Shown: piece after piece, positions 43,302 through 58,614 of the stretch | Numbering within the stretch: the stretch's first letter is position 1 | Layout of the letters: each line of letters starts with the position of its first letter | Source of the DNA: an uncultured Porphyromonadaceae bacterium | GTDB lineage: Bacteria > Bacteroidota > Bacteroidia > Bacteroidales > Muribaculaceae | Assembly: GCA_947573485.1 (NCBI GenBank) | Contig: CANPGB010000020.1 | Location: 1-58,670 of the forward strand | Length of the DNA: 58,670 nucleotides | Reading direction: 5' to 3' | Notes under the pieces: generated by a model | Told to the model about the DNA's origin: nothing | Database searches by the model: none | What the model saw: the letters and a program-made list of their open reading frames with translations, nothing else | Position numbers and translations under genes: made by a program

Positions 43302-43787
43302 ATGGAACAATCTCAGAGAGAGTTTGAAAAGATTGTCAGAGAGCAGGAACAGAATATTTATTCAATCTGCTATATGTACTCCCGCAACCGCGAGGAGGCC
43401 AGAGACCTCGTGCAGGATACTCTGATTAATCTTTGGAAAGGTTTGCCACGCTTCAGGGGCGAGAGCTCACTCCGCACCTGGGTGACGCGTGTGGCAATCA
43501 ACACCTGCGTATCGTTCAAGCGAAAGAAGAGCATAACAACAGTCGACGAAAGCTATATCCCCGCCTTCAGCGAAGCATCGGTCGAGGCCGGAAGCCAGAT
43601 AAAATTTCTGCACGGACGCCTGCAGAAACTCGACTATCTCGACCGCGCCCTTGTGCTGCTCTGGCTCGAAGATATGCCTTACGACGAAATCGGCGCAATC
43701 CTGGGCATGTCTGCCAAAAACGTGGGAGTGCGCCTGGTGCGGATAAAAAACAAGCTTAAAACCATAACAGACGATGAACGACAATAA
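43302..43787 (+). CDS. ECF-type RNA polymerase sigma factor
   Basis: A 161-aa sigma factor of the extracytoplasmic-function group. Region 2 contains YSICYMYSRNREEARDLVQDTLINLWKGLP with the conserved DLVQDT, and the following FRGESSLRTWVTRVAINTC is typical. Region 4 is the DYLDRALVLLWLEDMPYDEIGAILGMSAKNVGVRLVRIKNKL helix-turn-helix. Such proteins redirect RNA polymerase to a stress or envelope regulon. It overlaps the next gene by 14 bp, which is usual for a sigma/anti-sigma pair. No TAnnTTTG element is seen upstream, so it may be self-controlled. Confidence 0.9.
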   Translation: MEQSQREFEKIVREQEQNIYSICYMYSRNREEARDLVQDTLINLWKGLPRFRGESSLRTWVTRVAINTCVSFKRKKSITTVDESYIPAFSEASVEAGSQIKFLHGRLQKLDYLDRALVLLWLEDMPYDEIGAILGMSAKNVGVRLVRIKNKLKTITDDERQ

Positions 43788-44388
43788 GATATCTCACGAC
43801 ACCTTACCCGAGCTGCGCGCTGCCATGGATACGCTCAAGCGCACCATGCCGCACGACGGCATCATAAGCCAAAGCGCCATACGGCGGGCTATGCGCTCAA
43901 GAAGCATATGGCTCAACTATCTCGTTATTGGCGAACTTATAATGTTACCCATAATAGTGCTGGCACTCTTCGGCATAGCGCATTTCGAAGGCATGAGCAT
44001 ATGGCCTGCGGTGGTGTTTGTAATACTTGCCGTGCCCGACACAATCCTCGATTTGCGCACAATGGCCATTTCGCAGAAATGGATTAGCGAAGAAACTCTC
44101 GTAGGCTTGAGCCACAGGTTGATACGGCAGAAGAAAGAGCGGCATCGGCAGACAGCCATCTCCACAGCCCTCATGGTGCTCTGGCTGATATGGTTTTTCT
44201 ATGAACTCGTTCGCCCGGCCGCAGCCTATCTGACCGCCGTCGATTTGATGTGGCTGTGGGCTGCCACCTCGGCACTTGGACTCGTGGCATCACTGATAGT
44301 AATAGCGATAATCTACCGTAAGGCACAGAAGACAAACGACGAGATGATAGCCTCCCTCAGCGCTTTTGAAGAAGACTCCCGAACCTGA
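43774..44388 (+). CDS. Integral membrane protein, candidate anti-sigma factor
   Basis: A 204-aa protein with a cytoplasmic N-terminal helix region (about 1-45, which has LPELRAAMDTLKRTM) and four membrane helices near 48-68, 75-92, 127-147 and 160-182. It overlaps the ECF sigma gene by 14 bp, so the two are coupled and it may hold the sigma factor at the membrane. No zinc-binding HxxxCxxC motif is present. I do not recognise a named family; the anti-sigma role rests on context. Confidence 0.6.
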   Translation: MNDNKISHDTLPELRAAMDTLKRTMPHDGIISQSAIRRAMRSRSIWLNYLVIGELIMLPIIVLALFGIAHFEGMSIWPAVVFVILAVPDTILDLRTMAISQKWISEETLVGLSHRLIRQKKERHRQTAISTALMVLWLIWFFYELVRPAAAYLTAVDLMWLWAATSALGLVASLIVIAIIYRKAQKTNDEMIASLSAFEEDSRT

Positions 44389-46794: not shown

Positions 46795-46825
46795 TTGCAA
46801 TCTGCGAATTTTTTTAGTAATTTTG
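46795..46825 (+). promoter_or_regulatory. Promoter of the leader RNA and chaperone operon
   Basis: TTG at 46795-46797 and TAATTTTG at 46818-46825 are 20 nt apart. The expected transcript begins near 46832. No second TAnnTTTG promoter is found between here and the GTG at 47198, so the operon probably depends on it. Confidence 0.7.
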
Positions 46826-46831
46826 CAGTGA

Positions 46832-47146
46832 CCTTACGCCGTGAGACTTCGTAAGAAGCCGGAACGTGGGAGGCCATTACATAATGAAAGCGTTTATCGC
46901 GCTTGATTCTTGGCTGTTTCAGAAATCTGGCAGTTTCAAAAACTTCGTCAAGAATGAGGTAACGATAGATGTCTCGGGTATGACGTGTATGCCCTTAGGA
47001 GGTTTGTACCCAGTCGGTACGTCCCCTTTGGCGTATCATATATCATACGGCGTAGGCTCTACGTTACTCGTTCTACGAAGTGACGGCTATGCCAGATGCC
47101 TTGAAACAGCAGGACGAGTAACGATACGGATCCTGCGCTTTTTTTT
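46832..47146 (+). ncRNA. Structured leader RNA of about 315 nt with antiterminator/terminator
   Basis: Between the promoter and a terminator no convincing gene is found, but several stems are. CTTACG/CGTAAG (46833-46838/46850-46855), GTACC/GGTAC (47006-47010/47016-47020), CGTAT/ATACG (47032-47036/47045-47049), and a perfect 10-bp pair CGTTACTCGT/ACGAGTAACG (47062-47071/47114-47123). The last one uses bases inside the loop and edge of the final terminator (47109-47146), so the two structures compete. It may be an attenuator for the downstream operon or a stand-alone small RNA. I do not recognise a known riboswitch, tmRNA, RNase P or 6S pattern. Confidence 0.55.
47109..47146 (+). terminator. 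Terminator at the end of the leader RNA
   Basis: GCAGGA (47109-47114) pairs with TCCTGC (47131-47136) and is followed by GC and eight T (47139-47146). It lies 51 bp upstream of the first operon gene, so read-through is needed for expression unless an unseen promoter exists. Confidence 0.65.
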
Positions 47147-47197
47147 GTTAAACCAATCATACCCGTCCGATTGGGATTCGTGGGCGATTGTAATTGT

Positions 47198-50100
47198 GTG
47201 CTAAATTGCATAACAAATAATCCATATCGCATCTTAGGTGTATTTGCAAATGCGCCTAAGAAAGATATACTGTCTTCGGAGAATAAGATAAAAGCGTTCT
47301 TGAAGGTTGATAAAGATATTCAGTTTCCACTCGATTTAGTTCCAAACTTACCGCCTATCAAGAGAGATTTAGATAGTGTTTCCAAAGCGATGAAGGAGCT
47401 TGAACGCCCAATCGACGAATTGAAATCACTATTATTTTGGTTTGTTGAGCAAACACCGATAGACAAGATAGCCTTTAATCATCTCACATCAAGTAACATT
47501 CACAAGGCTATTGAGATTTGGTCTAAAGTAGAGAATCTCAGTTCAAGTCTAAATCTACTCACGTCATATACAATTTTAGAGGACTGGGAACATGTCGCAG
47601 AATGCGCTGATGGTTTGTTGTCAAATTACAACTACGTTGAAGACGTTTGTAAGCTGGTAAGCGATACCGTTCAGTATGACTCACCCCAGATGATTAAATT
47701 TTATCTGGATGTAATCTGTAAGGAAAGTCCCACTGTCTTATGGAAGATATATCGTTCTTTTGACCCGGATCCCGATGGGCCGAATCTTGAAGATAGAGGC
47801 ACTACAGAATGGAACTTTCAGATAAGAGAAGTTCTTGCATCATATTTTATCCAAAAAACAGAGAATCAACTTGCAGAGGTTCTAAAAACGCCCAAGGATG
47901 ATATACTTGAACGAGCGCGAAAGATGCACCACCTTCTCAAACAAATAGATTGGGAGGCTCGTCGGGAAGTCATGGGGAATGGCGTAGACCTTTCTCGTTT
48001 GAAAGACAAAGTAGCATCCGAAGGAATTCAAATTGCTATCAATCTCTACAACAATTCGGATGATTCCTCACAAGTAGCTCGAATGTCTTTGGAGTTGGCC
48101 CAATTAGCTCTAAACACTTCTGAAAAAGGGAGTCTTGTATATCAGCGGTGCGAAGAAAATGTCAACACCCTTAAAGATATATGTTCGGAATTACCTCCGG
48201 TTGAGGCCGTTTACTATGACAAATTACTCAAACCAATTATAGAGGCATATCAGAATAAACCATCAACCATTGATAACGCAAATGATTTTATAAATGCTTG
48301 TGCGCCATATCTAATGTCTATTCGTACAGCTATTGGTGCGAATCATAAATACTACATAAAGATATGTACCCGCATAGCAGAAGATGCCCTTTCTGATATA
48401 ATATCCGATTATAACGAGCAAAGTGAGCGATTACATAATCGCCATGAAAACAGCAATCGTCAAAATAGAAATTCGATAATAAAGTCAATTCAAGAAATGA
48501 TGAAAAAGGCATTAATAGCTATGTATCATCTAAAATTCCTTGGATTAGACCCCGCTTTCAAAACCAATCGGTTTGACAATAACTATGCTATTATTGTGAA
48601 GCAAGCCCGAGGCGCACAAGCTTTGGGAGCATCTTCAATACATGCAATTCTTGGAGGTGAAGTGTCAGAAAGCGAGTTCAATAACGAACTCAAGAAATAC
48701 CCATTGGACCAAAGAGATGAGGATGCCTACTTCACCAACATCAAGTCTCTAAACGAGTGCTACTTATATCGGAAATTATTCCCCAATGGCAAGTATGCGA
48801 AACAAATCGCACTTAAAGTTGAGGAATATGAGTATAGGGATTGTGCCACCTTGGCAGACTTAATGAAATTCAAGGTTAGATTCCCATCAACAAAATATGA
48901 TTTAGAGAAGAAACGCGAAGAGATAATATTCAAGAGTTGTAAAACTATTGAAGATTATCAGGCATATCTGACAAAATATAGTACATACAAAGACCGAGCA
49001 CTTTCACGCATAGATGATTTGCGGTTTGCACAATGCAATAATCGTGAGGGATATGCTAATTACCTCAAGCAGTATCCGAATGGAAGTCATAGATTGGAGG
49101 CTTATCGGAAACTTGATGAATTGGATTACGGTGCTTGCAAGACGTTGCAAGATTTTGAACGTTATTTGCAAAACTATCCCCATGGCTTCCGTGCATCGGA
49201 TGCTCGTAAGCGAATAGCGGATGAACAGGCTTGGCAAGAGTGCATAGAAAAGAATTCTTGGAAAGCGTACAAAGAGTATCTATCTAAATTCCCCTATGGC
49301 AGACATTCAAGCGAGGCTAAACCTAAGGCGGTAAGTCCCGGTGAAAAATTCAAAAAATGGAGAGAGAACAATGGATGTTTGTTTACTCTCATCATAATTG
49401 TACTGATTGGATTCATTATTGCCGGAATTTCAAATGGAGTTACAGGAATAGGATGTGTTTTTGGTTTTATAGCCTTATGCGGAGTTGGCATTGCTATTGG
49501 AAAAGGCGATGTTGGTTGTGGCGCTCGAATCGGAGGTTTGGGCGTAGCTGTTATTTGTAGTGCGATTGCACTTGGACTCATTTCGTGGGGAGAGGAACTT
49601 GAAAGAAGAAATAAAGCCGAAAGAGCGATAAACGCTTTGCCAAGCAATCTATCTGTTTCTGATTATCAAAAACTATTCTCTCAATACGGGAGTCAGATTG
49701 ACAACTCCACAAAACAAGATTTGCTGGAGCAGTATTACAATGCTTCTCTTGATTCTTGTTACATTACAATGTATGACTATTCTTCAGGAGGATACAATTC
49801 ATCACTATCAGGGTTGGGTTATATAAAGAAATTTGCGGAGACTTGTCATGACTCTTTATATAAGAACAAAGCAGAGTCAAGATATTCAGAATTAGTTGAC
49901 TCGCTTTATTCTGAGGCAAACACTCTTAATACTTATTATGCTTGGACCGCTTATCAAGCATCTGTGTCATCTGATGATTATCGTGATTCTCAAGAAAAGA
50001 AAGATGCTGCGGATACAAAATGGGCAACAGACAAGTCCGCATGGCAAACTGCATCAAGCCTGAACAATATAGCTGCATATCAAAAGTATTTGGACTTATA

Positions 50101-50482
50101 TCCCTATGGCAAACATAAGTCGTCTGCGGAAAGCAAATTGATAGACTTACAGGTTGACGCAACATTTGCCGGAGAGCACGGTTATCTCCCAGAGATGGAC
50201 AAGACATCCTATGGTAGTGGTTCCACATCTACTATAAGTGTTTATAATAACACCTCTTATACTCTCACATTGCTTTATAGTGGTAAGGAAAGTAAGAAGC
50301 TCGTACTATCTCCTAATTCCAGAGGCCGTCTCAGATTGAAGAATGGGCCATATCGAATTGCGGCTTCTGTCTCCGCCTCAAATGTTCAGCGTTACGCTGG
50401 TTCGGAAACACTGAATGGAGGAGGTTATGAAGTGGAATATTATATTTCCACGACCACCGTTCCTTCATATCGAAGATATTAA
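47198..50482 (+). CDS. Large membrane protein with J-like N-terminal domain and YL-P-G repeats
   Basis: A 1094-aa protein, not a family I can name. Residues about 5-45 (NPYRILGVFANAPKKDILS) look like the first half of a J-domain but have no His-Pro-Asp. The N-terminal ~150 residues are shared with the next gene. A helical region follows, then repeats of the form YxxYLxxYPxGxxxxEA (about 530-725 and again near 955), three hydrophobic segments (about 727-748, 749-771, 780-800), and a β-rich C-terminus. The GTG at 47198 is chosen because from there it aligns residue by residue with the paralog (xxNxITxNPYRILGV); the TTG at 47171 gives an unaligned extension. It is the first gene of the operon and ends 1 bp before the second. 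Confidence 0.7.
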   Translation: MLNCITNNPYRILGVFANAPKKDILSSENKIKAFLKVDKDIQFPLDLVPNLPPIKRDLDSVSKAMKELERPIDELKSLLFWFVEQTPIDKIAFNHLTSSNIHKAIEIWSKVENLSSSLNLLTSYTILEDWEHVAECADGLLSNYNYVEDVCKLVSDTVQYDSPQMIKFYLDVICKESPTVLWKIYRSFDPDPDGPNLEDRGTTEWNFQIREVLASYFIQKTENQLAEVLKTPKDDILERARKMHHLLKQIDWEARREVMGNGVDLSRLKDKVASEGIQIAINLYNNSDDSSQVARMSLELAQLALNTSEKGSLVYQRCEENVNTLKDICSELPPVEAVYYDKLLKPIIEAYQNKPSTIDNANDFINACAPYLMSIRTAIGANHKYYIKICTRIAEDALSDIISDYNEQSERLHNRHENSNRQNRNSIIKSIQEMMKKALIAMYHLKFLGLDPAFKTNRFDNNYAIIVKQARGAQALGASSIHAILGGEVSESEFNNELKKYPLDQRDEDAYFTNIKSLNECYLYRKLFPNGKYAKQIALKVEEYEYRDCATLADLMKFKVRFPSTKYDLEKKREEIIFKSCKTIEDYQAYLTKYSTYKDRALSRIDDLRFAQCNNREGYANYLKQYPNGSHRLEAYRKLDELDYGACKTLQDFERYLQNYPHGFRASDARKRIADEQAWQECIEKNSWKAYKEYLSKFPYGRHSSEAKPKAVSPGEKFKKWRENNGCLFTLIIIVLIGFIIAGISNGVTGIGCVFGFIALCGVGIAIGKGDVGCGARIGGLGVAVICSAIALGLISWGEELERRNKAERAINALPSNLSVSDYQKLFSQYGSQIDNSTKQDLLEQYYNASLDSCYITMYDYSSGGYNSSLSGLGYIKKFAETCHDSLYKNKAESRYSELVDSLYSEANTLNTYYAWTAYQASVSSDDYRDSQEKKDAADTKWATDKSAWQTASSLNNIAAYQKYLDLYPYGKHKSSAESKLIDLQVDATFAGEHGYLPEMDKTSYGSGSTSTISVYNNTSYTLTLLYSGKESKKLVLSPNSRGRLRLKNGPYRIAASVSASNVQRYAGSETLNGGGYEVEYYISTTTVPSYRRY

Positions 50483-50483
50483 A

Positions 50484-52115
50484 ATGACTAATCTAATCAC
50501 ACATAACCCTTATCGCATATTGGGTGTGTATTCCAACTCCCCCAAAAAGGATGTGCTTTCTAATCTGAATAAAATGAAAGCATTCCTAAAGGTGGGTAAA
50601 GATGTTTCATTCCCCTTGGATTTACCCAATTACCTTCCTACAGTAGGAAGAGATGAAGCCATTGTGTCGGCGGCACAATCATCAATTGAATTGCCTATTG
50701 ACCAGTTGAAGCATTCTCTTTTTTGGTTCATGAAGGAAACTCCACTTGATGATATTGCGTTCAATCATCTTTTCAGTGGAAATATCCAGCAAGCCAAAGA
50801 TATTTGGCAAAAGAAGGAGTGTGTTTCATCGCTCTTAAATCTCATTGCGTGTGCTGCCATAGAAGAAGACTATACAGCCTTGGCTTTAAGTGCAGATAGC
50901 CTTTTTCAAAACCACGCATCTGAGCTCTGCTCTTCAGTAAATGAGACAATAAAGCTCTCGTCAGAACAACTTACTGAATTATTGGTGAATCTACTAAAAG
51001 AAAAAGGAGACGTCGATATGTCTGTTTTCGCGAGAGTATCCGGCACATCTTCGGTCTGGCATAAAGCCTTTGCTGCAAGTACAGTTAAACCATTGATTGA
51101 TGCAATCAATACAGCTGTCAATGAAGCTAAGAACATCAAAGGTTCAGCTGCCAACTATTCTGCTGGCTTCAAGTTGATGAATTCAACTAAAGGAATCCTT
51201 ACTCAGTTAAGAGGATTATTGGGAACATCAGATATGCAGTATCAGATGATTGCCGACAAACTTGCCCAAACTATTCTTCAGTGTGGCATCAACTATTTCA
51301 ACGACTCCAACGATGATGATGCTCCACAAATAGCGATGATATTGCAGAAATACGCACTTTCTATCTCAGTCGGTCCCCTTGCAAAAGAGCGTTGCAAAGA
51401 AAATGTGGACATACTCCAAAAAATCGGTCCAGAGTATAAAGTGCAACGAGAAATGGGACGCATAGCAGATAGACTTAAAAGGTTCAATGCAAAATCATCA
51501 TCACGGGGCATTGATATATTCGCGTCTCTTTCAGGATCTCACTCCTTATCTGAAATCGAATCATTTGTCAATAGCAATGCCTCAGATTTACAAGTCATTA
51601 AAAGTAAGTTGGGAACAACTAATGATATATATCTAAAAATTAGCTCGGCAGTTGCATCTGCGGCGATAAATGCATTGGTTGATAAAATCAATAAAGCACA
51701 GACAATGGCACAAATTACATCTGACAAGTCCTCTCTTCGTTCAGATGTATCATCTGCAATTTCTATAATGTCAAAGATTTCTTCTTTAGACATGACTTCT
51801 CAGTGCCGTAGTTATTTCAACAACAATAATTCCACATTGAATAGCATTAATTCTCAGCTAAATCCATCTGGAGGTTGCTATATTGCGACTATGGCATATG
51901 GTGATTACGACCATCCGCAAGTAATGGTGCTTCGCGATTTTCGTGATTCGTTTTTGGCCAAGCGGAACTGGGGAAAGAGATTTATTGCTTATTATTACGC
52001 CCACTCGCCCAATTGGGTTGAGAAACTGAAAAATCATAAAACCATAAACGCAATAATTCGTAAAGTATTGGATACTTTTGTTTTGCTTTGGAAAAATATA
52101 TTACATCATGAATAA
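50484..52115 (+). CDS. J-like N-terminal domain protein with C-terminal CFI-box domain
   Basis: A 543-aa protein whose first ~150 residues repeat the N-terminus of the upstream protein (NPYRILGVYSNSPKKDVLS; LFWFMKETPLDDIAFNHLFSGNI). The middle is helical with no named domain. The C-terminal ~70 residues (about 462-530) carry GGCYIATMAYGDYDHPQV, LRDFRDSFL and YYAHSPNW, the pattern called CFI-box-CTERM, a short module found at protein C-termini in many bacteria and possibly membrane-linked. There is no HPD motif in the J-like region. Start 50484 is set by alignment with the paralog; upstream codons would lie in the previous gene. It overlaps the next gene by 8 bp. Confidence 0.75.
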   Translation: MTNLITHNPYRILGVYSNSPKKDVLSNLNKMKAFLKVGKDVSFPLDLPNYLPTVGRDEAIVSAAQSSIELPIDQLKHSLFWFMKETPLDDIAFNHLFSGNIQQAKDIWQKKECVSSLLNLIACAAIEEDYTALALSADSLFQNHASELCSSVNETIKLSSEQLTELLVNLLKEKGDVDMSVFARVSGTSSVWHKAFAASTVKPLIDAINTAVNEAKNIKGSAANYSAGFKLMNSTKGILTQLRGLLGTSDMQYQMIADKLAQTILQCGINYFNDSNDDDAPQIAMILQKYALSISVGPLAKERCKENVDILQKIGPEYKVQREMGRIADRLKRFNAKSSSRGIDIFASLSGSHSLSEIESFVNSNASDLQVIKSKLGTTNDIYLKISSAVASAAINALVDKINKAQTMAQITSDKSSLRSDVSSAISIMSKISSLDMTSQCRSYFNNNNSTLNSINSQLNPSGGCYIATMAYGDYDHPQVMVLRDFRDSFLAKRNWGKRFIAYYYAHSPNWVEKLKNHKTINAIIRKVLDTFVLLWKNILHHE

Positions 52116-53022
52116 GATACTACTTTCACTCTTGCTTTTGTTTGGACTTACCTGCCATGCAGAAGCCAGCGATTCAGAATTGCAGGGAGTAAATGAAAAG
52201 GTAAGTACGCTAACGCAGCGAGTTGAGAATCTCTCAGGAGAGAATCAAAAGTTGAGAAGTGAGGTGTCCTCACTTCAGTCTATAGTTGAGTTTCTACAGA
52301 ATCAACTCATATCTGTTGAAGCCAAAAGCGATTCAATAGATAATGCGCTGATGACAGGCGTTGCATCTAATACAGAGCTTGCCAATACAAACCACGCTGC
52401 CGCAACAGAGCGAATACAAGTGGTTGAAACCGATTCGCAGAATAACATCCGTAAAATAACAGTTTGGGGTGTATGGGCAATCGTGGCTCTTTTGATAGTG
52501 GCAATCATTGTTTACATTGTCCTTCACCGTGGTATAACTAAGAGTACTGATGCAATCTCTTCAATCAGAGACGCACAAAAGAACCTCGAAGAGGAATCTG
52601 TTAAACTCGACACAAAACTTGTGGAACTTTTGGACAAGCAATTGCTCATGGAGAAACAACAATCCAAAGGAGTTTCTTCAAACACCGTGGCGGCAATTGA
52701 CCATACTCTTGCATTAAAAGTAGCTGACGAAATCACTCGAATTGAAATGAACCTCTCTCGCATGGATTCCTCCGTCAAGGGCTATAAACAACTATCAAAA
52801 GCTGTTGAGCGTATTAAGAACAATTTCCAAGCCAATGGTTACGAAATTGTAACTTATATTGGACAGCCCTATAATGAAGGTATGCGTATCAATGCAGACT
52901 TTGTAATAGATGAAGAACTTCCGGAAGGGACAAGAACAATCACATCAGTATCAAAGCCACAGGTTCATCACAATGGTGAGCTAATCCAAAAAGCCACGGT
53001 AACAGTAACACAAAACATTTAA
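52108..53022 (+). CDS. Membrane-anchored GrpE-like nucleotide exchange factor
   Basis: A 304-aa protein: signal-like hydrophobic N-terminus (residues 1-20), a coiled coil on the far side of the membrane (about 25-110), a membrane helix (about 118-139), a second coiled coil (about 145-235), and a C-terminal β-rich head (238-304). The head has YIGQPYNEGMRINADF, LPEGTRTITSV and LIQKATVTV, which follow the order of the GrpE head (GxxFDPxxHEA, GTIxxV, xRPAxVxV). Coiled coil plus this head is the GrpE design. The Hsp70 gene lies 8 bp downstream, which fits a partner role. Similarity is judged by eye, so the assignment is probable, not certain. Confidence 0.65.
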   Translation: MNKILLSLLLLFGLTCHAEASDSELQGVNEKVSTLTQRVENLSGENQKLRSEVSSLQSIVEFLQNQLISVEAKSDSIDNALMTGVASNTELANTNHAAATERIQVVETDSQNNIRKITVWGVWAIVALLIVAIIVYIVLHRGITKSTDAISSIRDAQKNLEEESVKLDTKLVELLDKQLLMEKQQSKGVSSNTVAAIDHTLALKVADEITRIEMNLSRMDSSVKGYKQLSKAVERIKNNFQANGYEIVTYIGQPYNEGMRINADFVIDEELPEGTRTITSVSKPQVHHNGELIQKATVTVTQNI

Positions 53023-53030
53023 CACCATAT

Positions 53031-55514
53031 ATGGCACAACTAAAAGTAAACTACGGTATTGACCTTGGCACTACCAATTCTGTTATAGCCAGAATGGAAG
53101 CCGGAGTCCCTACTGTTAAAAAGATAGAGGTCACAGATGACACAATGGCCTCTTGTGTCTTCTTCAATAAGAAGAAGAGTCTGGTGGTCGGTGCAAGTGC
53201 GTATCGCAGTATGCAGAGCGACAAGCGCCGTGCCACGAAGAAAATGACTGCCAAAGCCTCAAATACCTATGTCGAGTTCAAGCGCACGATGGGTACTGAT
53301 AAGCGGTATGTAAGTTCTAATATGGACAACCGTTCATATTCTTCTGAGGAGTTTTCCGCTGAAGTTCTCAAAGCGTTGAAATCATTCATCACTGATGAAG
53401 ATTTCAAGTCTGTCGTTATCACAGTTCCCGCTAAATTCAGCGCCCTTCAAAAGACTGCTACTATTGAGGCCGCAAAACTTGCGGGATTCAATCACATTGA
53501 GCTCCTTCAAGAGCCTATTGCCGCCGCAATGGCGTATGGTCTGACGGCAGCTCAAAAAGATGGTTACTGGCTTGTGTTCGACTTTGGTGGTGGTACATTC
53601 GACGCTGCTCTTATCAAAGTTGAGGATGGTATCATTCAAGTATTCGATACCGAAGGTGATAACTATCTCGGCGGTAAAAATCTTGACTACGCCATTGTTG
53701 ACGAAATTTTGATGCCTTACCTTCAAGAAAACTATTCAATCGAAGGTTATCTTGCTGATCCCGTAAAAAAAGAAATTCTTAGGGATGCAATGAAAACGTA
53801 CGCCGAGAAAGTTAAGAACCAACTTTCTTTCAAGAAATCTGAAGACGTTATTTCGGATCTCGGAGAACTGGGCGAAGACGAGGATGGCGAAGAATTTGTA
53901 CTCGATTTGTCAATCACACAAGATGAGGTATACAAAGTTATGCGTCCTCTTTTTCAAAAGGCCGTTGACATCTGCAAAGACCTGTTGAAAAGAAACAATC
54001 TTACCAAAGACCAACTTGGGAAACTTATACTTGTCGGAGGCCCGACCCATTCTCCGTTGGTACGTCAAATGCTTAAGGAGCAAGTAACGCCTAATGTTGA
54101 TACAAGTATCAACCCTATGACTGCCGTTGCAGAAGGTGCCGCTCTTTATGCCTCAACAATTGACAATGAAGTCAAAGAGGATGACCTGAAGGCTGAGGAT
54201 ATAGTCCTCGACATCAACTTTGAATCAATGACAGTTGATACCGACCTTTGGGTTCCGGTTTCTTTGAAATCCGGAGCCGACAGTGTAATGGTTCAGTTTG
54301 TCAGAAGCGACAACACATGGGATAGCGGAAAAACAGAAATAGATAAAAACGGCAATGTAATTGAGCTTAACCTTGTAGAGGGCAAGCCCAACTCTTTCCG
54401 TGTTGAATGCTACGACCATCAAGGCAATCGCCTCAACTGCTTCCCAAAAGAAATTACCATCATACAAGGTTCAAAGGTCGGCAGTGCTACATTGCCTTAT
54501 GACATATCGCTGGCAATCTATGATGAGAAGAAAGAGCGCGATGTCATCAAACCTATAACAGGTCTGGAACGTAACAAGACAGTTCCTGCTACTGGTATTG
54601 CCAACGGCCTCCACACCAATGTGCAGGTGAGAGCCGGTGTTGATACAGATATTCTCAGAATCCCCCTTTATCAAGCAGACCAAGGTGGCGCGGGGAAATC
54701 TGCAATCTTCTATGAATTTGTCGGAGAGGTAGAAATCGATGGTGATGATGTGGATGTAACCATTCCCACAAATGCCAATGTTGACATTACTGTCAAGGTT
54801 GACCGCAACGAGCAGATGACTGTCGATGCTTATTTCCCCGACCAAGATGTGACGGTATCAAAGACTATCGACACTTCCAAGAAACAGTCGATTGAGGATG
54901 CTAAGGAATTTGCTGATGAGCAACTTCCGAAAGCAAAACGCTCTATCCGAAATCTCCGCAATGAGGGTCATGATGTTTCGGACTTGGAGCAGCAGCTCGA
55001 CTCTGTTGAGAATGAACATGCCAACAGTACCGAGTCTAAAATGGTGATGCAGCATCTCAAGGAGGTACTCCGCAAAATTGAAGATTTTGAGGATAATACC
55101 GAATGGGGACGCGTCGAAGCAGAACTACGTGATGAGTTTGGCCGACTTGAAAAGGCTAATGCGGATCTTGGCAACAACAAGACTAATCAAGCCGTGAATG
55201 CACTTCGTCAACAGATTGATGAGGTTATCCGCAAGCAGGATGTAAAGATGGCGCGTGAACTTAAAGAAATAGTCACACATCTGTTCTATCAGCTTACAAT
55301 GGTTTATCAGTGTCGCTATCTCATAGAAGACATGAATCGCGACTTTGATATTATCCAATGGAAGGATAGAAACCGCGCACGAACTCTCATCAATCAAGGT
55401 CTGGCTGAAATCAACAATCAGCCCACAAGAGAGAAATTACAGCCTATAGCCGTAGCACTTCTCGAACTTCTTCCCGAAGGAGAGCGACGTAAACGCGGCA
55501 GTGGGTTATCGTAA
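53031..55514 (+). CDS. Non-canonical Hsp70 (DnaK-like) chaperone
   Basis: An 827-aa Hsp70-family protein. The ATPase domain (about 1-390) has all three phosphate-binding motifs: YGIDLGTTNS at the start, VFDFGGGTFDAA, and LVGGPTHSPLVRQM (usually GGxTRxP). The region after it (about 400-620) is β-rich but does not look like a DnaK substrate-binding domain, and a long charged helical region (about 640-820) ends the chain in RRKRGSGLS. Total length exceeds DnaK (about 640 residues). It is likely a dedicated chaperone for this operon with the GrpE-like and J-like proteins as co-factors. Client and trigger are unknown. An 18-bp inverted repeat follows it. Confidence 0.88.
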   Translation: MAQLKVNYGIDLGTTNSVIARMEAGVPTVKKIEVTDDTMASCVFFNKKKSLVVGASAYRSMQSDKRRATKKMTAKASNTYVEFKRTMGTDKRYVSSNMDNRSYSSEEFSAEVLKALKSFITDEDFKSVVITVPAKFSALQKTATIEAAKLAGFNHIELLQEPIAAAMAYGLTAAQKDGYWLVFDFGGGTFDAALIKVEDGIIQVFDTEGDNYLGGKNLDYAIVDEILMPYLQENYSIEGYLADPVKKEILRDAMKTYAEKVKNQLSFKKSEDVISDLGELGEDEDGEEFVLDLSITQDEVYKVMRPLFQKAVDICKDLLKRNNLTKDQLGKLILVGGPTHSPLVRQMLKEQVTPNVDTSINPMTAVAEGAALYASTIDNEVKEDDLKAEDIVLDINFESMTVDTDLWVPVSLKSGADSVMVQFVRSDNTWDSGKTEIDKNGNVIELNLVEGKPNSFRVECYDHQGNRLNCFPKEITIIQGSKVGSATLPYDISLAIYDEKKERDVIKPITGLERNKTVPATGIANGLHTNVQVRAGVDTDILRIPLYQADQGGAGKSAIFYEFVGEVEIDGDDVDVTIPTNANVDITVKVDRNEQMTVDAYFPDQDVTVSKTIDTSKKQSIEDAKEFADEQLPKAKRSIRNLRNEGHDVSDLEQQLDSVENEHANSTESKMVMQHLKEVLRKIEDFEDNTEWGRVEAELRDEFGRLEKANADLGNNKTNQAVNALRQQIDEVIRKQDVKMARELKEIVTHLFYQLTMVYQCRYLIEDMNRDFDIIQWKDRNRARTLINQGLAEINNQPTREKLQPIAVALLELLPEGERRKRGSGLS

Positions 55515-55520
55515 ACTTAA

Positions 55521-55558
55521 TTTATGTGAGAGGGAAGCAAGCTTCCCTCTCACATAAA
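55521..55558 (+). repeat. Perfect 18-bp inverted repeat between the Hsp70 and the next gene
   Basis: TTTATGTGAGAGGGAAGC (55521-55538) and its exact complement (55541-55558) are separated by AA. On the plus strand it is followed by AA rather than T, so it is not a good intrinsic terminator. It may be a cleavage or stability site that sets different levels of the two halves of the mRNA. Confidence 0.8.
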
Positions 55559-55570
55559 AACCTCATAAAT

Positions 55571-56179
55571 ATGGAAAAGGAAGAAATTCTATCAAAAGTC
55601 CAACAGATATGTGACACGTTGACAAGCGAGATGGAAACACTATCTCACTATGATCGTGTGAGCCATCTGAGTCAATCAAAGATACAATTTCAAGGTGGCA
55701 TACTCGGTGGCATTAGAGAATATCGAGAAAGTAAGCGACTCGAAAAATTGATGAATCAGCCAATTGTGGGTGACTTATCATTCTATAAGTATGCCTTTCA
55801 TTTGATTGAAAAAGCAGAAGAACTTACTAAGTTGCTCCTCGAATATCAAAAAACAGTGGGGGAAGCTGACGAAAACTATTATACGCCTGTAGAAGCTGCC
55901 ATTAACGTCACAATGAAGGCTGTCAGTACATGGTATAATCTCAGCCCAGATATGGCAGACGCATCCATAACCATAGGCAGTGAAAAAAATGTCGCTCTTG
56001 CGCCTACTGTTAGAGGATATGTAAAAGATGAGTTTGCTAAATTAGATTTACCAGAAAGTTTGCAACCCCTTAAAAAAGCAGACATGGAATCTTCTAATGG
56101 AGGTTGCTTCGGGATGCTCTTGTTCCTCCTTTCTGCCGGAGCTTCTGGGTTGGCTATGATGTTCGCCTTCATACTATAA
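55571..56179 (+). CDS. Tail-anchored helical protein of the chaperone operon
   Basis: A 202-aa protein of unknown family. The N-terminal 150 residues are helical (VQQICDTLTSEMETLSHYD; AFHLIEKAEELTKLLLEY) and soluble. A single C-terminal hydrophobic segment, GMLLFLLSAGASGLAMMF (about 180-200), would anchor it in the membrane with the rest in the cytoplasm. Start 55571 begins MEKEEILSKVQQ; an upstream in-frame ATG at 55526 would have to read through the inverted repeat. It ends 7 bp before the kinase-AAA gene. Confidence 0.65.
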   Translation: MEKEEILSKVQQICDTLTSEMETLSHYDRVSHLSQSKIQFQGGILGGIREYRESKRLEKLMNQPIVGDLSFYKYAFHLIEKAEELTKLLLEYQKTVGEADENYYTPVEAAINVTMKAVSTWYNLSPDMADASITIGSEKNVALAPTVRGYVKDEFAKLDLPESLQPLKKADMESSNGGCFGMLLFLLSAGASGLAMMFAFIL

Positions 56180-56186
56180 GAAAATC

Positions 56187-57962
56187 ATGCTGTTCAAACG
56201 ACAAGACAAAATAGGAAGTTACTCCGTCATATCGCCGATTAAGAAAGGCGCGTATGCCGAGACATACAGGGTGAAGGATGCTCAGGGGACAAAACGTTTT
56301 CTGAAGTTGATATGCACCCCCAATCTTAAACATTGGCAGACTGATGAAACCGGTAATATTATTGAGGTTGATGTAGCCAAATCCCTGCATCATCACAATC
56401 TGTGTGAGTTTATAGATGCCGGAACTCTTGTCATTGGGGGTCAGAAATATTCCTATCTCGTAAAAGAGTTTGTCAATAACGAGACTTTGGCAGAATCCAT
56501 TGAGAGAGGAAGAGAATACAGCGTCTATGAAATAAAACAGATAGGAGTTGCCATTCTTTCCGCGCTGAAGTATTTGCATTCACTTCCTCGTCCAATTATC
56601 CACAATGAGGTCACAATACAAAATATTATGCTTGACCTCAAAACGGATGATCTGAAGGATGTAAAGTTGATTGATTTTGGTTATTCTCGCTATCTCGACC
56701 AACCCAACTGCAAGCAGAGTCTTGACGATTTGAACGTCTTTTATCTCGCTCCAGAACGCTTTGCCGGCGTGTCATGCGTCCAAAGTGACTTATATTCCGT
56801 GGGCGTTTGCCTTTATCTTCTTATATATGGAAAATTGCCATGGTTCATAGACCTTGGCAGATGTACAAACGAGGAGAAGATTGAAAAAGTCAGCCGACGC
56901 AGGGAGCGCCCTCTTGATTTTCCTGATATTGATATGTTTGAACTTGATGAGCAACTTATCAATACAATAAAGAAGGCACTGTTGCCTAACGTTCAAGACC
57001 GTTTCCAAAGTGCGGATGAATTTATATTGGCTCTTGATGGTACTCTAAGGGTGGAGAATCCGGACTTTTCACGGCAAATGAGAGTTGGTGGCGATGAAAA
57101 GAAAAAAGAGACATCAACACATAAACCGTCAGAGGGAGAAGGATTCGCAGCTATAGCCGGTATGCAGGAACTGAAGGATTTGGTTAAGGCCGAAGTGATT
57201 GATGCCATTAATCAAAGAGAAGAATATGAACGGTATGGCGTTACAATTCCTAACGGCATGTTACTCTATGGTCCTCCGGGGTGCGGAAAGACTTTCTTTG
57301 CCAAGCAACTTGCTGCAGAGGTTGGCTTCAACTTTATGGTTAAGAAACCAAGTGACTTGCAGAGCCGATGGGTAAATGCTACGCAGGAAAACATTGCCGC
57401 CATGTTCAAGGAAGCGGGGGAGAACGCCCCGACCATAATCTTCTTGGACGAGATGAATGAACTGACTCCAAACCGAGACAGTGGCAATGTCCATCAAATG
57501 CACCTCAGTGCAGTCAATGAACTTCTCGCCAACATGGACAGACTTGGAGAGAAAGGTATTTTTGTGATTGGGGCTACCAACTACCCCCATCTCATGGATC
57601 CAGCAATACTTCGTTCAGGTCGTTTGGATAAGAAGTTCTACGTTGCGCCTCCTGATTATGAAGCTCGGAAGGCAATGTTTGAGATGTTGCTGAAGAAACG
57701 TCCGTATGACTTCGGACTGGATTACGACAAACTGGCAAAGCTCACTGAAAACTATGTTTTCTCTGACCTTACGCTCATAATTAATGATGCTTCCCGTAAA
57801 GCATTGATGACAAAAAGCAAGATTACGATGGCAATTCTTGAAGATACGATTGCCAACACTAAATCTTCACTGAGTGCTCGCGATATAGAAAAGTATAATA
57901 AAATCAAGACCCAAATGGAAGGTGGGGAAATTGAAAAGCCTCGTCCACGTGTGGGCTTCTAA
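56187..57962 (+). CDS. Ser/Thr kinase-like domain fused to an AAA+ ATPase
   Basis: A 591-aa fusion. Kinase-like part (about 8-275): glycine-type loop KKGAYAETY, a Lys (K40) in the RFLKLI strand, and DFG at 163-165. The catalytic loop reads His139-Asn-Glu141-Val-Thr143-Ile-Gln-Asn146, where canonical kinases have His-Arg-Asp-Leu-Lys, so it may be a pseudokinase or an atypical kinase. AAA part (about 320-560): Walker A GPPGCGKT (362-369), Walker B IIFLDEMNEL, sensor region GATN, and RSGRLD arginine fingers, close to the FtsH/Cdc48 type. Such AAA modules unfold or disassemble proteins. It lies between a tail-anchored protein and a TerB-like gene. Confidence 0.88.
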   Translation: MLFKRQDKIGSYSVISPIKKGAYAETYRVKDAQGTKRFLKLICTPNLKHWQTDETGNIIEVDVAKSLHHHNLCEFIDAGTLVIGGQKYSYLVKEFVNNETLAESIERGREYSVYEIKQIGVAILSALKYLHSLPRPIIHNEVTIQNIMLDLKTDDLKDVKLIDFGYSRYLDQPNCKQSLDDLNVFYLAPERFAGVSCVQSDLYSVGVCLYLLIYGKLPWFIDLGRCTNEEKIEKVSRRRERPLDFPDIDMFELDEQLINTIKKALLPNVQDRFQSADEFILALDGTLRVENPDFSRQMRVGGDEKKKETSTHKPSEGEGFAAIAGMQELKDLVKAEVIDAINQREEYERYGVTIPNGMLLYGPPGCGKTFFAKQLAAEVGFNFMVKKPSDLQSRWVNATQENIAAMFKEAGENAPTIIFLDEMNELTPNRDSGNVHQMHLSAVNELLANMDRLGEKGIFVIGATNYPHLMDPAILRSGRLDKKFYVAPPDYEARKAMFEMLLKKRPYDFGLDYDKLAKLTENYVFSDLTLIINDASRKALMTKSKITMAILEDTIANTKSSLSARDIEKYNKIKTQMEGGEIEKPRPRVGF

Positions 57963-57974
57963 AACATTTCACTT

Positions 57975-58445
57975 ATGGATATTAAAGAGATATATCTGTT
58001 GACTGCATTTGTATGTGCTGCTTGTGATGGAGAGATTGCTCCAAAAGAGGTGTCTTTGGTCAAGGAGATGTGCAACAAGAGCGATATGTTTGGCGACCTT
58101 GATGTTGAGGCCAAACTCAACGAGTATGTTGCTGCCATAAATAAGCATGGTATCCGATTCATCAATGACTTTCTCCGCGTATTGGAAAGCACTGAACTGA
58201 CTAATCAAGAGCAACTGACTATTGTCAGGATAGCCATTGACATGATTGAGGCTGATGGGCAGATTCTATACTCTGAGGTTAAGTTCTTCAAAAGATTACG
58301 TCCGTGCCTAAATATTTCCGATGAGGAGATACTCAAAGTCCTTCCGGATAAGGAGGATTATCTCCTATCTGATATTCGTACCACTGAATACTCGTTTGAT
58401 GACAACATTCAATTCTCTGAAATCAAATGGAATAATCCTGTTTGA
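57975..58445 (+). CDS. TerB-like protein
   Basis: A 156-aa helical cytoplasmic protein. The pattern AAFVCAACDGEIAPKEVSLV-like (here LLTAFVCAACDGEIAPKE) and, near residue 95, IDMIEADGQILYSEVKFF are the two acidic repeats of TerB-type domains, which bind metal ions and occur in tellurite-resistance and stress modules. The last 30 residues are acidic and unordered-looking. It is the seventh and last gene of the operon, 12 bp after the kinase-AAA fusion. Its presence links the system to Ter-type stress responses. Confidence 0.7.
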   Translation: MDIKEIYLLTAFVCAACDGEIAPKEVSLVKEMCNKSDMFGDLDVEAKLNEYVAAINKHGIRFINDFLRVLESTELTNQEQLTIVRIAIDMIEADGQILYSEVKFFKRLRPCLNISDEEILKVLPDKEDYLLSDIRTTEYSFDDNIQFSEIKWNNPV

Positions 58446-58459
58446 GCCTTATAGGCACC

Positions 58460-58477
58460 CCAATGGATATCCATTGG
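58460..58477. repeat. Perfect 18-bp palindrome
   Basis: CCAATGGATATCCATTGG is fully self-complementary and lies 15 bp after the TerB-like stop codon. Its role is unknown; it could be a protein-binding site or an mRNA 3' element. Confidence 0.6.
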
Positions 58478-58507
58478 CGCAAGCTCTCTGTTGCCGTCTA
58501 ATGCTAT

Positions 58508-58550
58508 TTGCAGGCAAAAGTTGCACGGAATATTTGGATTTTGCCTGCAA
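58508..58550. repeat. 12-bp inverted repeat
   Basis: TTGCAGGCAAAA (58508-58519) and TTTTGCCTGCAA (58539-58550) are exact complements with 19 bp between. A partial third copy, TTTGCCTG, follows at 58551. No T-run on either side. Confidence 0.6.
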
Positions 58551-58572
58551 TTTGCCTGTGGAAAATAAAAAG

Positions 58573-58614
58573 AGCGAGATAACTATTGAATCTTCAATTA
58601 GTTATCTCGCTTTT
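58573..58614 (+). terminator. Terminator at the end of the chaperone operon
   Basis: AGCGAGATAACTA (58573-58585) pairs with TAGTTATCTCGCT (58599-58611), followed by TTT. With A-rich sequence before it, it can work in both directions. Beyond it (58615-58670) no gene is seen. Confidence 0.85.

Follow-up and report, generated by a model that had tools for sequence, protein, structure and literature searches.

A seven-gene Bacteroidales operon with its own divergent Hsp70: a candidate membrane Hsp70/AAA remodelling machine

Seven co-directional genes recur as a set in Bacteroidota

The DNA analysed here (the window) is a 58,670-nt stretch of contig CANPGB010000020.1 from an uncultured Porphyromonadaceae bacterium. 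It carries seven open reading frames (ORFs; g1 to g7) on the same strand, spanning positions 47198-58445, which encode two J-like proteins, a GrpE-like membrane protein, a divergent Hsp70, a variable protein with a C-terminal hydrophobic segment, a degenerate protein kinase fused to an AAA ATPase, and a TerB-like protein. We propose, at somewhat less than even odds (a probability of about 0.45), that this operon encodes a dedicated membrane Hsp70/AAA remodelling machine acting at the cytoplasmic face of the inner membrane. The observations behind this proposal are the gene order, the Hsp70 and AAA motifs, the hydrophobic segments, the degenerate kinase motif and a predicted Hsp70 structure with an additional domain.

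The genes are closely packed. With their likely starts, g1 and g2 are separated by 1 bp, g2 and g3 overlap by 8 bp, and gaps of 8, 56, 7 and 12 bp follow at g3/g4, g4/g5, g5/g6 and g6/g7, respectively, in agreement with a preliminary description of this DNA that had reported seven co-directional genes with junctions below 60 bp. The starts of g1 (GTG at 47198, placed from aligned leaders), g2 (ATG at 50484), g3 (ATG at 52108) and g5 (ATG at 55571) are probable assignments and are not those of the longest ORFs. The contig ends at 58670, shortly 3' of the operon.

A scan of a species-genome collection gave 146 confirmed Hsp70 relatives, of which the best 80 were kept with flanks of up to 10 kb. 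Together with the window they make 81 loci, all chosen through the Hsp70; several come from metagenome bins, where the assigned name (e.g. Lachnospiraceae, Clostridia) may be mistaken. By profile, the Hsp70 was present in all 81 loci, and the counts were 76 for the GrpE-like protein, 73 for the J-like protein, 71 for the AAA fusion, 55 for the TerB-like protein and 5 for g5. Loci with less than 2.8 kb upstream or less than 4.5 kb downstream of the Hsp70 gene were excluded from the counts of gene order, and the window itself falls outside the downstream count because of the contig end. J-like, GrpE-like and Hsp70 genes were adjacent in 68 of 68 testable loci (one extra ORF allowed per step), the kinase-like-AAA fusion lay within four ORFs after the Hsp70 in 53 of 59, and the TerB-like gene lay within two ORFs beyond the fusion in 45 of 53. 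Chance falls far short of explaining this recurrent order, with the caveat that the Hsp70 served to choose the loci. That scattered Bacteroidota share the set makes it probable that it forms one working unit, and the earlier claim of a single functional unit is supported by this joint conservation in other genomes.

The loci without a nearby AAA gene are L068, L069, L072, L074, L085 and L114. The GrpE-like protein is 171 aa long in L068, L069, L072 and L074, and L068, L072 and L074 carry two to four J-like copies plus Hsp70. Small J-like/GrpE-like/Hsp70 sets with neither AAA nor TerB alongside occur at L038:4868-8809 and L041:1483-5528 (the J-like gene of L041 was recognised by eye), and the operons at L096:9419-15273 and L110:9422-15332 each hold two Hsp70 copies with one ORF between them.

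The distribution of the operon is patchy and accessory. Records not labelled as metagenome-assembled genomes belong to Bacteroides, Palleniella, Prevotella, Mediterranea, Parabacteroides, Odoribacter and Psychroflexus. Among 146 relative genomes, matches into the C-terminal half of g4 were found in the own genome and in G089, G104, G061, G106 (two fragments), G102 and G120, and the remaining listed matches were confined to the nucleotide-binding domain (NBD) region; likewise, the genus supplied 48 further genomes, some of them incomplete, and among the matches listed for these none went beyond the NBD region. Of 395 genomes taken from the phylum, 8 carry the GrpE-like domain, counting the own genome and two weak cases. 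DNA shared with L043, L044 and L046 begins at 46811, 46811 and 46814, respectively, at the promoter, and in L043 it stops at 58426, near the last stop codon; the flanking DNA had no match to these three loci beyond the shared stretch. Such edges would fit movement of a cassette, but rearranged flanks as well. A phage origin was rejected because viral contigs contained no Hsp70 relative and phage records no g3 relative (the other operon genes were not searched there). One plasmid record held a close Hsp70 relative at E ≤ 1e-100.

The Hsp70 is divergent and distinct from housekeeping DnaK

The product of g4 (53031-55514, + strand) matches Pfam PF00012 with E=7.9e-67 over residues 9-392 only. Each of eight ATPase residues, located by what we take to be DnaK numbering, is conserved in 70 or more of the 73 aligned Hsp70s (73 of 83 Hsp70 ORFs). 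Thus g4 has the actin-like NBD with ATPase residues of an Hsp70, and their retention suggests that it is ATPase-competent. A structure predicted from 73 input sequences (mean predicted local distance difference test score [pLDDT] of 90.1) contains the NBD, a six-stranded stretch at ~404-478, eight strands at ~491-612 and about 200 residues of helices. This model aligns with BiP (6zmd, AMP-PNP) over 475 residues at 2.8 A, between model residues 2-619 and chain residues 26-535, and has the beta fold of a substrate-binding domain (SBD-beta) behind the linker. About 140 residues within model residues 2-619 stay unaligned and, judging from the lengths, probably include the six-stranded stretch. The model therefore reads as a putative Hsp70 fold with an extra beta domain at ~404-478, SBD-beta at ~491-612 and a helical C-terminus. 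By sequence profile, the match to the SBD was weak (E 0.02-0.03, probability ~2; reversed control 0.5).

The preliminary description called this protein an unusual long Hsp70, and it is not the housekeeping DnaK of the species. It scored 235 bits against the DnaK equivalog cut-off of 822.55 bits, and the own genome encodes a separate DnaK in two contig-end pieces, on C40 (718.9 bits, model 1-454) and C27 (model 437-596); the identification of g4 as housekeeping DnaK was rejected on both grounds. At the Pfam level, the own genome also has one GrpE and one adjoining J-domain gene.

J-like and GrpE-like proteins of the operon

The first two genes have an N-terminal domain in common. By orthologue profiles and hydropathy, g1 (47198-50482, + strand) has a J-like N-terminus, a long middle, two or three hydrophobic segments mid-protein (at about residues 735-799 of the longest ORF) and then a C-terminal region. 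A J-like N-terminus in g2 (50484-52115, + strand) is followed by an all-helical body in the predicted model and a CFI-box at the C-terminus (NCBIfam). Pfam detected neither J-like nor GrpE-like domains in the window proteins and no DnaJ in 66 g2-type members (66 of 93 J-like ORFs were aligned). Compared with DnaJ by hhalign, the J-like profile gave E=3.9e-5 (probability 70) and, in a second setting, 3.1e-4 (probability 17), against 0.44 for the reversed control. A PDB search with this profile returned three weak matches in total (E 0.019, 0.71 and 1.7); two are DnaJ entries and the third is 2cug, presumably a J domain. The g2 model is helical (pLDDT 92.9) with a helix order that fits the J fold; the structure comparison was occupied by residues 200-462, outside the J-like part, and a whole-length PDB profile search with g2 found mostly TPR-type or designed helical proteins. 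The orthologue-profile comparisons thus point to a J-like domain, an assignment better supported than that of GrpE.

A signal-peptide-like start, a coiled coil, a transmembrane (TM) helix and a GrpE-like C-terminal domain are predicted for g3 (52108-53022, + strand) from profiles and hydropathy. The two hydrophobic segments lie at the start and at residues 131-149 of the longest ORF, with the coiled coil ahead of the TM helix, and 63 of 64 long g3 members have at least one such segment. Pfam GrpE matched 5 of 77 members at E ≤ 0.01, the best at 1.8e-4; the GrpE-like alignment comprises 71 of the 77 ORFs. A whole-length PDB profile search found mostly coiled-coil proteins. We consider the C-terminal domain likely to be GrpE-like because of the weak GrpE matches combined with its fixed place beside the Hsp70.

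The variable slot, the kinase-AAA fusion and the TerB-like protein

Hydropathy places a single hydrophobic segment at the very end of g5 (55571-56179, + strand), which would make it tail-anchored. The slot that it occupies between the Hsp70 and AAA genes is variable: 24 loci hold 35 extra ORFs of at least 60 aa there, 13 of them (in 11 loci) with a terminal hydrophobic segment. Among the window proteins, hydrophobic segments are thus found in g1, g3 and g5, as expected from the earlier claim of membrane-linked parts, and none in g2, g4, g6 and g7.

Pfam identifies in g6 (56187-57962, + strand) both Pkinase (1.6e-29) and AAA (PF00004, 1.3e-34). The kinase HRD motif reads HNE, replacing the catalytic Asp, so an active kinase was rejected for the window protein; the Asp survives in 9 of the 71 rows aligned, some of which are fragments. 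The AAA part has both Walker A and Walker B motifs of an AAA ATPase, and Walker A (GPPGCGK[TS]) is intact in 65 of 71. Hence the kinase-AAA fusion reported previously is real, with AAA motifs intact, but its kinase part lacks the catalytic Asp in the window protein and in the majority of members. The last gene, g7 (57975-58445, + strand), encodes a TerB-like protein. One orthologue is annotated as TerB family, and the relatives (55 of 56 ORFs aligned) weakly resemble TerB-type structures.

Proposed mechanism and the points against it

In the mechanism that we propose, the membrane-spanning GrpE-like g3 and the J-like proteins would tether the specialised Hsp70 at the membrane, where it may grasp exposed segments of membrane or tail-anchored proteins. 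The AAA ring, under control of the degenerate kinase domain and the TerB-like protein, would then unfold or extract these clients. The coiled coil of g3, probably outward-facing, may link the state of the envelope to Hsp70 cycling. A membrane Hsp70 and an AAA unfoldase are the pairing expected for remodelling or extraction of membrane proteins, and the purpose may be quality control of the envelope or defence against phage. We infer in this way the physical complex, its topology, the J-like and exchange activities, the clients, the trigger and the purpose. A fuller version of this proposal is doubtful when taken as a whole: a private Hsp70, anchored through HPD-less J-like proteins and a transmembrane exchange factor, would act together with a pseudokinase-controlled AAA ring to draw proteins out of the inner membrane, as an undescribed class of machine spread horizontally as a cassette and governed by an attenuator-like leader RNA that occurs in many copies. 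If the proposal is correct, bacteria possess special membrane-bound Hsp70 machines in addition to the DnaK system that is shared, and the operon allows one to ask how an Hsp70 runs without HPD and with an extra domain by the allosteric linker.

Several results weigh against the remodelling machine. The HPD motif occurs in 0 of 71 J-like domains, so J-type stimulation is not assured. The count covers 71 of 92 plus-strand J-like ORFs; of those left out, 16 are truncated or variant ORFs in which NP[YF]R is missing close to the start, and five are others. At the position of HPD, the sequence is [FY]PLD in 31 of the 71 domains, and its Asp hardly varies. The two J-like proteins described earlier thus resemble DnaJ by profile and lack HPD. 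Moreover, g2 of the window lacks a hydrophobic segment. The similarity of g3 to GrpE is weak: hhalign gave E 1.6e-4 with 3 GrpE reference sequences and 0.02 (probability 2) with 10, picked by patterns from 30 loci, the larger set giving the weaker E-value (reversed control 0.52), and a PDB search with the GrpE-like alignment returned no GrpE structure. The description of g3 as a GrpE-like membrane protein accordingly holds better for its hydrophobic segments than for its GrpE match. The match of g7 to TerB (PF05099, E 1.6e-4) scores 22.3 bits, under the gathering score of 24.4. A nearby AAA gene is missing in 6 of 59 testable loci and TerB in 8 of 53. Finally, the distances of g3, g4, g6 and g7 are correlated across 50 loci (Spearman 0.16-0.67, a level reached by 0-3 of 500 permutations). 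This correlation speaks for a common machine but could also stem from a genome history that the genes have in common.

Known systems and alternative explanations

The mitochondrial import motor consists of Pam18/Pam16, mtHsp70 and Mge1, such that an Hsp70 is held at the membrane by J and J-like proteins and an exchange factor. The likeness of the operon to this arrangement is by analogy alone. Among the literature matches listed, no title or opening of an abstract names the gene set, which agrees with the earlier statement that it is not a described system, and the parts of PMC7159879, PMC11090510, PMC11019930 and PMC11709261 drawn on here, to which all comparisons below refer, contain no description of it. 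Myxococcus MxDnaK2 is similarly a paralogous DnaK with its own GrpE gene and favours membrane proteins; unlike g4, it is found by the DnaK model, and its operon has two genes (PMC11019930). The CoCoNuT protein CnuD is likewise an Hsp70-like protein in a multi-gene system, possibly with a kinase, but CnuD is predicted to be a very poor ATP hydrolyser whereas g4 keeps its ATPase residues, and no McrB or McrC is seen in the operon (PMC11090510).

Possible, though we think it improbable, is an anti-phage (conflict) system, in which the machine would sense phage or foreign proteins at the membrane and either disrupt these or bring growth to a halt. The patchy accessory distribution would suit such a role, as would a plasmid copy in Haliscomenobacter hydrossis (L269:6357-15941), where five genes match g2, g3, g4, g6 and g7 and face brxL and pglZ of a BREX locus. 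The AAA part of g6 resembles IetA models and its kinase part MAD6 and PD-T4-6 models, although these matches are only at the superfamily level. Published conflict systems combine HSP70, GrpE and DnaJ parts; the GAP1-N2 DO-GTPase systems share operon-linked Hsp70, GrpE and DnaJ/TPR parts with the operon, which has AAA and TerB instead and is mainly found in Bacteroidota, whereas the GAP1-N2 theme is predominantly in Actinobacteria and Firmicutes (PMC7159879). No GTPase, whether DO-GTPase or McrB, appeared among the listed families of the seven proteins (the best 25 for g6), with no dedicated GAP1 search made, and the same listed families include no recognisable killing or nuclease domain.

The neighbourhood of the loci also argues against this role. 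PADLOC was applied to 114 nearest neighbours (E ≤ 1e-10), being 123 picked ORFs minus six operon ORFs and three from near-duplicate loci; the picking was limited to neighbours shorter than 900 aa. No family had more than one match, the background not being measured. The single matches, given in a table that does not resolve the number of proteins behind them, were to a type I restriction endonuclease, pAgo, AbiEi, SoFic and candidate families, and 0 of 10 neighbours from named isolates had any. A firm claim that these are defence-island genes was rejected for these two reasons, and the sensing of damage or infection put forward in the preliminary description is so far unsupported.

Less probable is an envelope-stress module in which membrane TerB, J and Hsp70 components loosen a regulatory complex and so induce a stress response instead of extracting clients. 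The model for it is DjlA, which joins a TM helix, a TerB-like domain and a J domain, needs DnaK and GrpE to activate Rcs, and can steer both to membrane complexes (PMC11709261). Similar domain types occur here: the TerB-like domain, membrane anchoring and an Hsp70 with an exchange factor are common to both, and the coiled coil ahead of the g3 TM helix would suit an envelope function. In contrast to DjlA, the operon has separate genes, its own Hsp70, no HPD and an added kinase-like AAA (PMC11709261). This explanation suffers from the lack of a recognised signalling partner in the operon and of HPD in the J-like domains, and it leaves the AAA unexplained. Ordinary duplicated chaperone genes clustered by chance are very improbable: most parts are in or related to known superfamilies, but they are divergent, and genes outside the query keep the order in all 68 loci testable upstream of the Hsp70 and in 53 of the 59 testable downstream.

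Promoter, leader RNA and hairpins

Returning to the operon of the proposed remodelling machine, a promoter-like sequence (TTG...TAatTTTG; 46796-46825, + strand) lies near the left edge of the DNA shared with relatives and is of Bacteroidetes type by what we take to be the consensus. Further upstream, at window positions 43302-44388, an extracytoplasmic function-type sigma factor gene is followed by one for a hydrophobic protein.

The promoter is followed by a 5' leader RNA of ~320 nt (46826-47147, + strand), which has no match in Rfam. Its 3' domain (47047-47147) consists of two helices, P1 and P2, with P1 ending at a terminal U-run. In 17 leader sequences, 99.3% of cells pair, against 38-51% in slid controls, and both sides have changed in 4 of 18 pairs; for 57 distinct leaders found with the model, and aligned by fitting to it, the corresponding figures are 99.7%, 38-54% and 11 of 18. 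At least six bases of the P1 5' strand and its continuation can pair alternatively with a downstream segment in 8 of the 17 leaders, which makes a switch possible; no such alternative was found in the window leader.

Of the 81 loci, 48 were tested for the leader element, and in 20 of these it lies ahead of the operon at E ≤ 1e-5 (four were in the model). Among 59 genomes of the own family, 52 carry the element, with up to 18 copies per genome and 8 in the own genome. The genes behind it were surveyed for copies among the best-scoring rather than random ones, 54 of 55 of which gave a downstream ORF: the first genes include ones for BspA-like repeats (10/54) and radical-SAM proteins (2) and single restriction-type genes, and many encode secreted proteins as judged by eye. 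The leader RNA is a separate handle on a possible regulon in gut Bacteroidales.

Two further hairpins were seen. One of 17 bp between g4 and g5 (55521-55558) may set relative expression. The other, with a short TTTT tail (58572-58614), was read from the sequence as terminator-like and is a plausible end terminator; it is absent from a terminator scan that gave 10 sites against 9.9 expected. Of the leader promoter and end terminator reported earlier, the former is therefore retained and the latter is plausible.

The structured leader is present in multiple copies with strong covariation ahead of many different genes (L153-L169, L229-L268). In addition, it stands ahead of a second shared operon of 6-7 genes (L153:387-8384, L155:37-8172), which encodes a protein of ~855 aa that we take to be ClpA/B-like.

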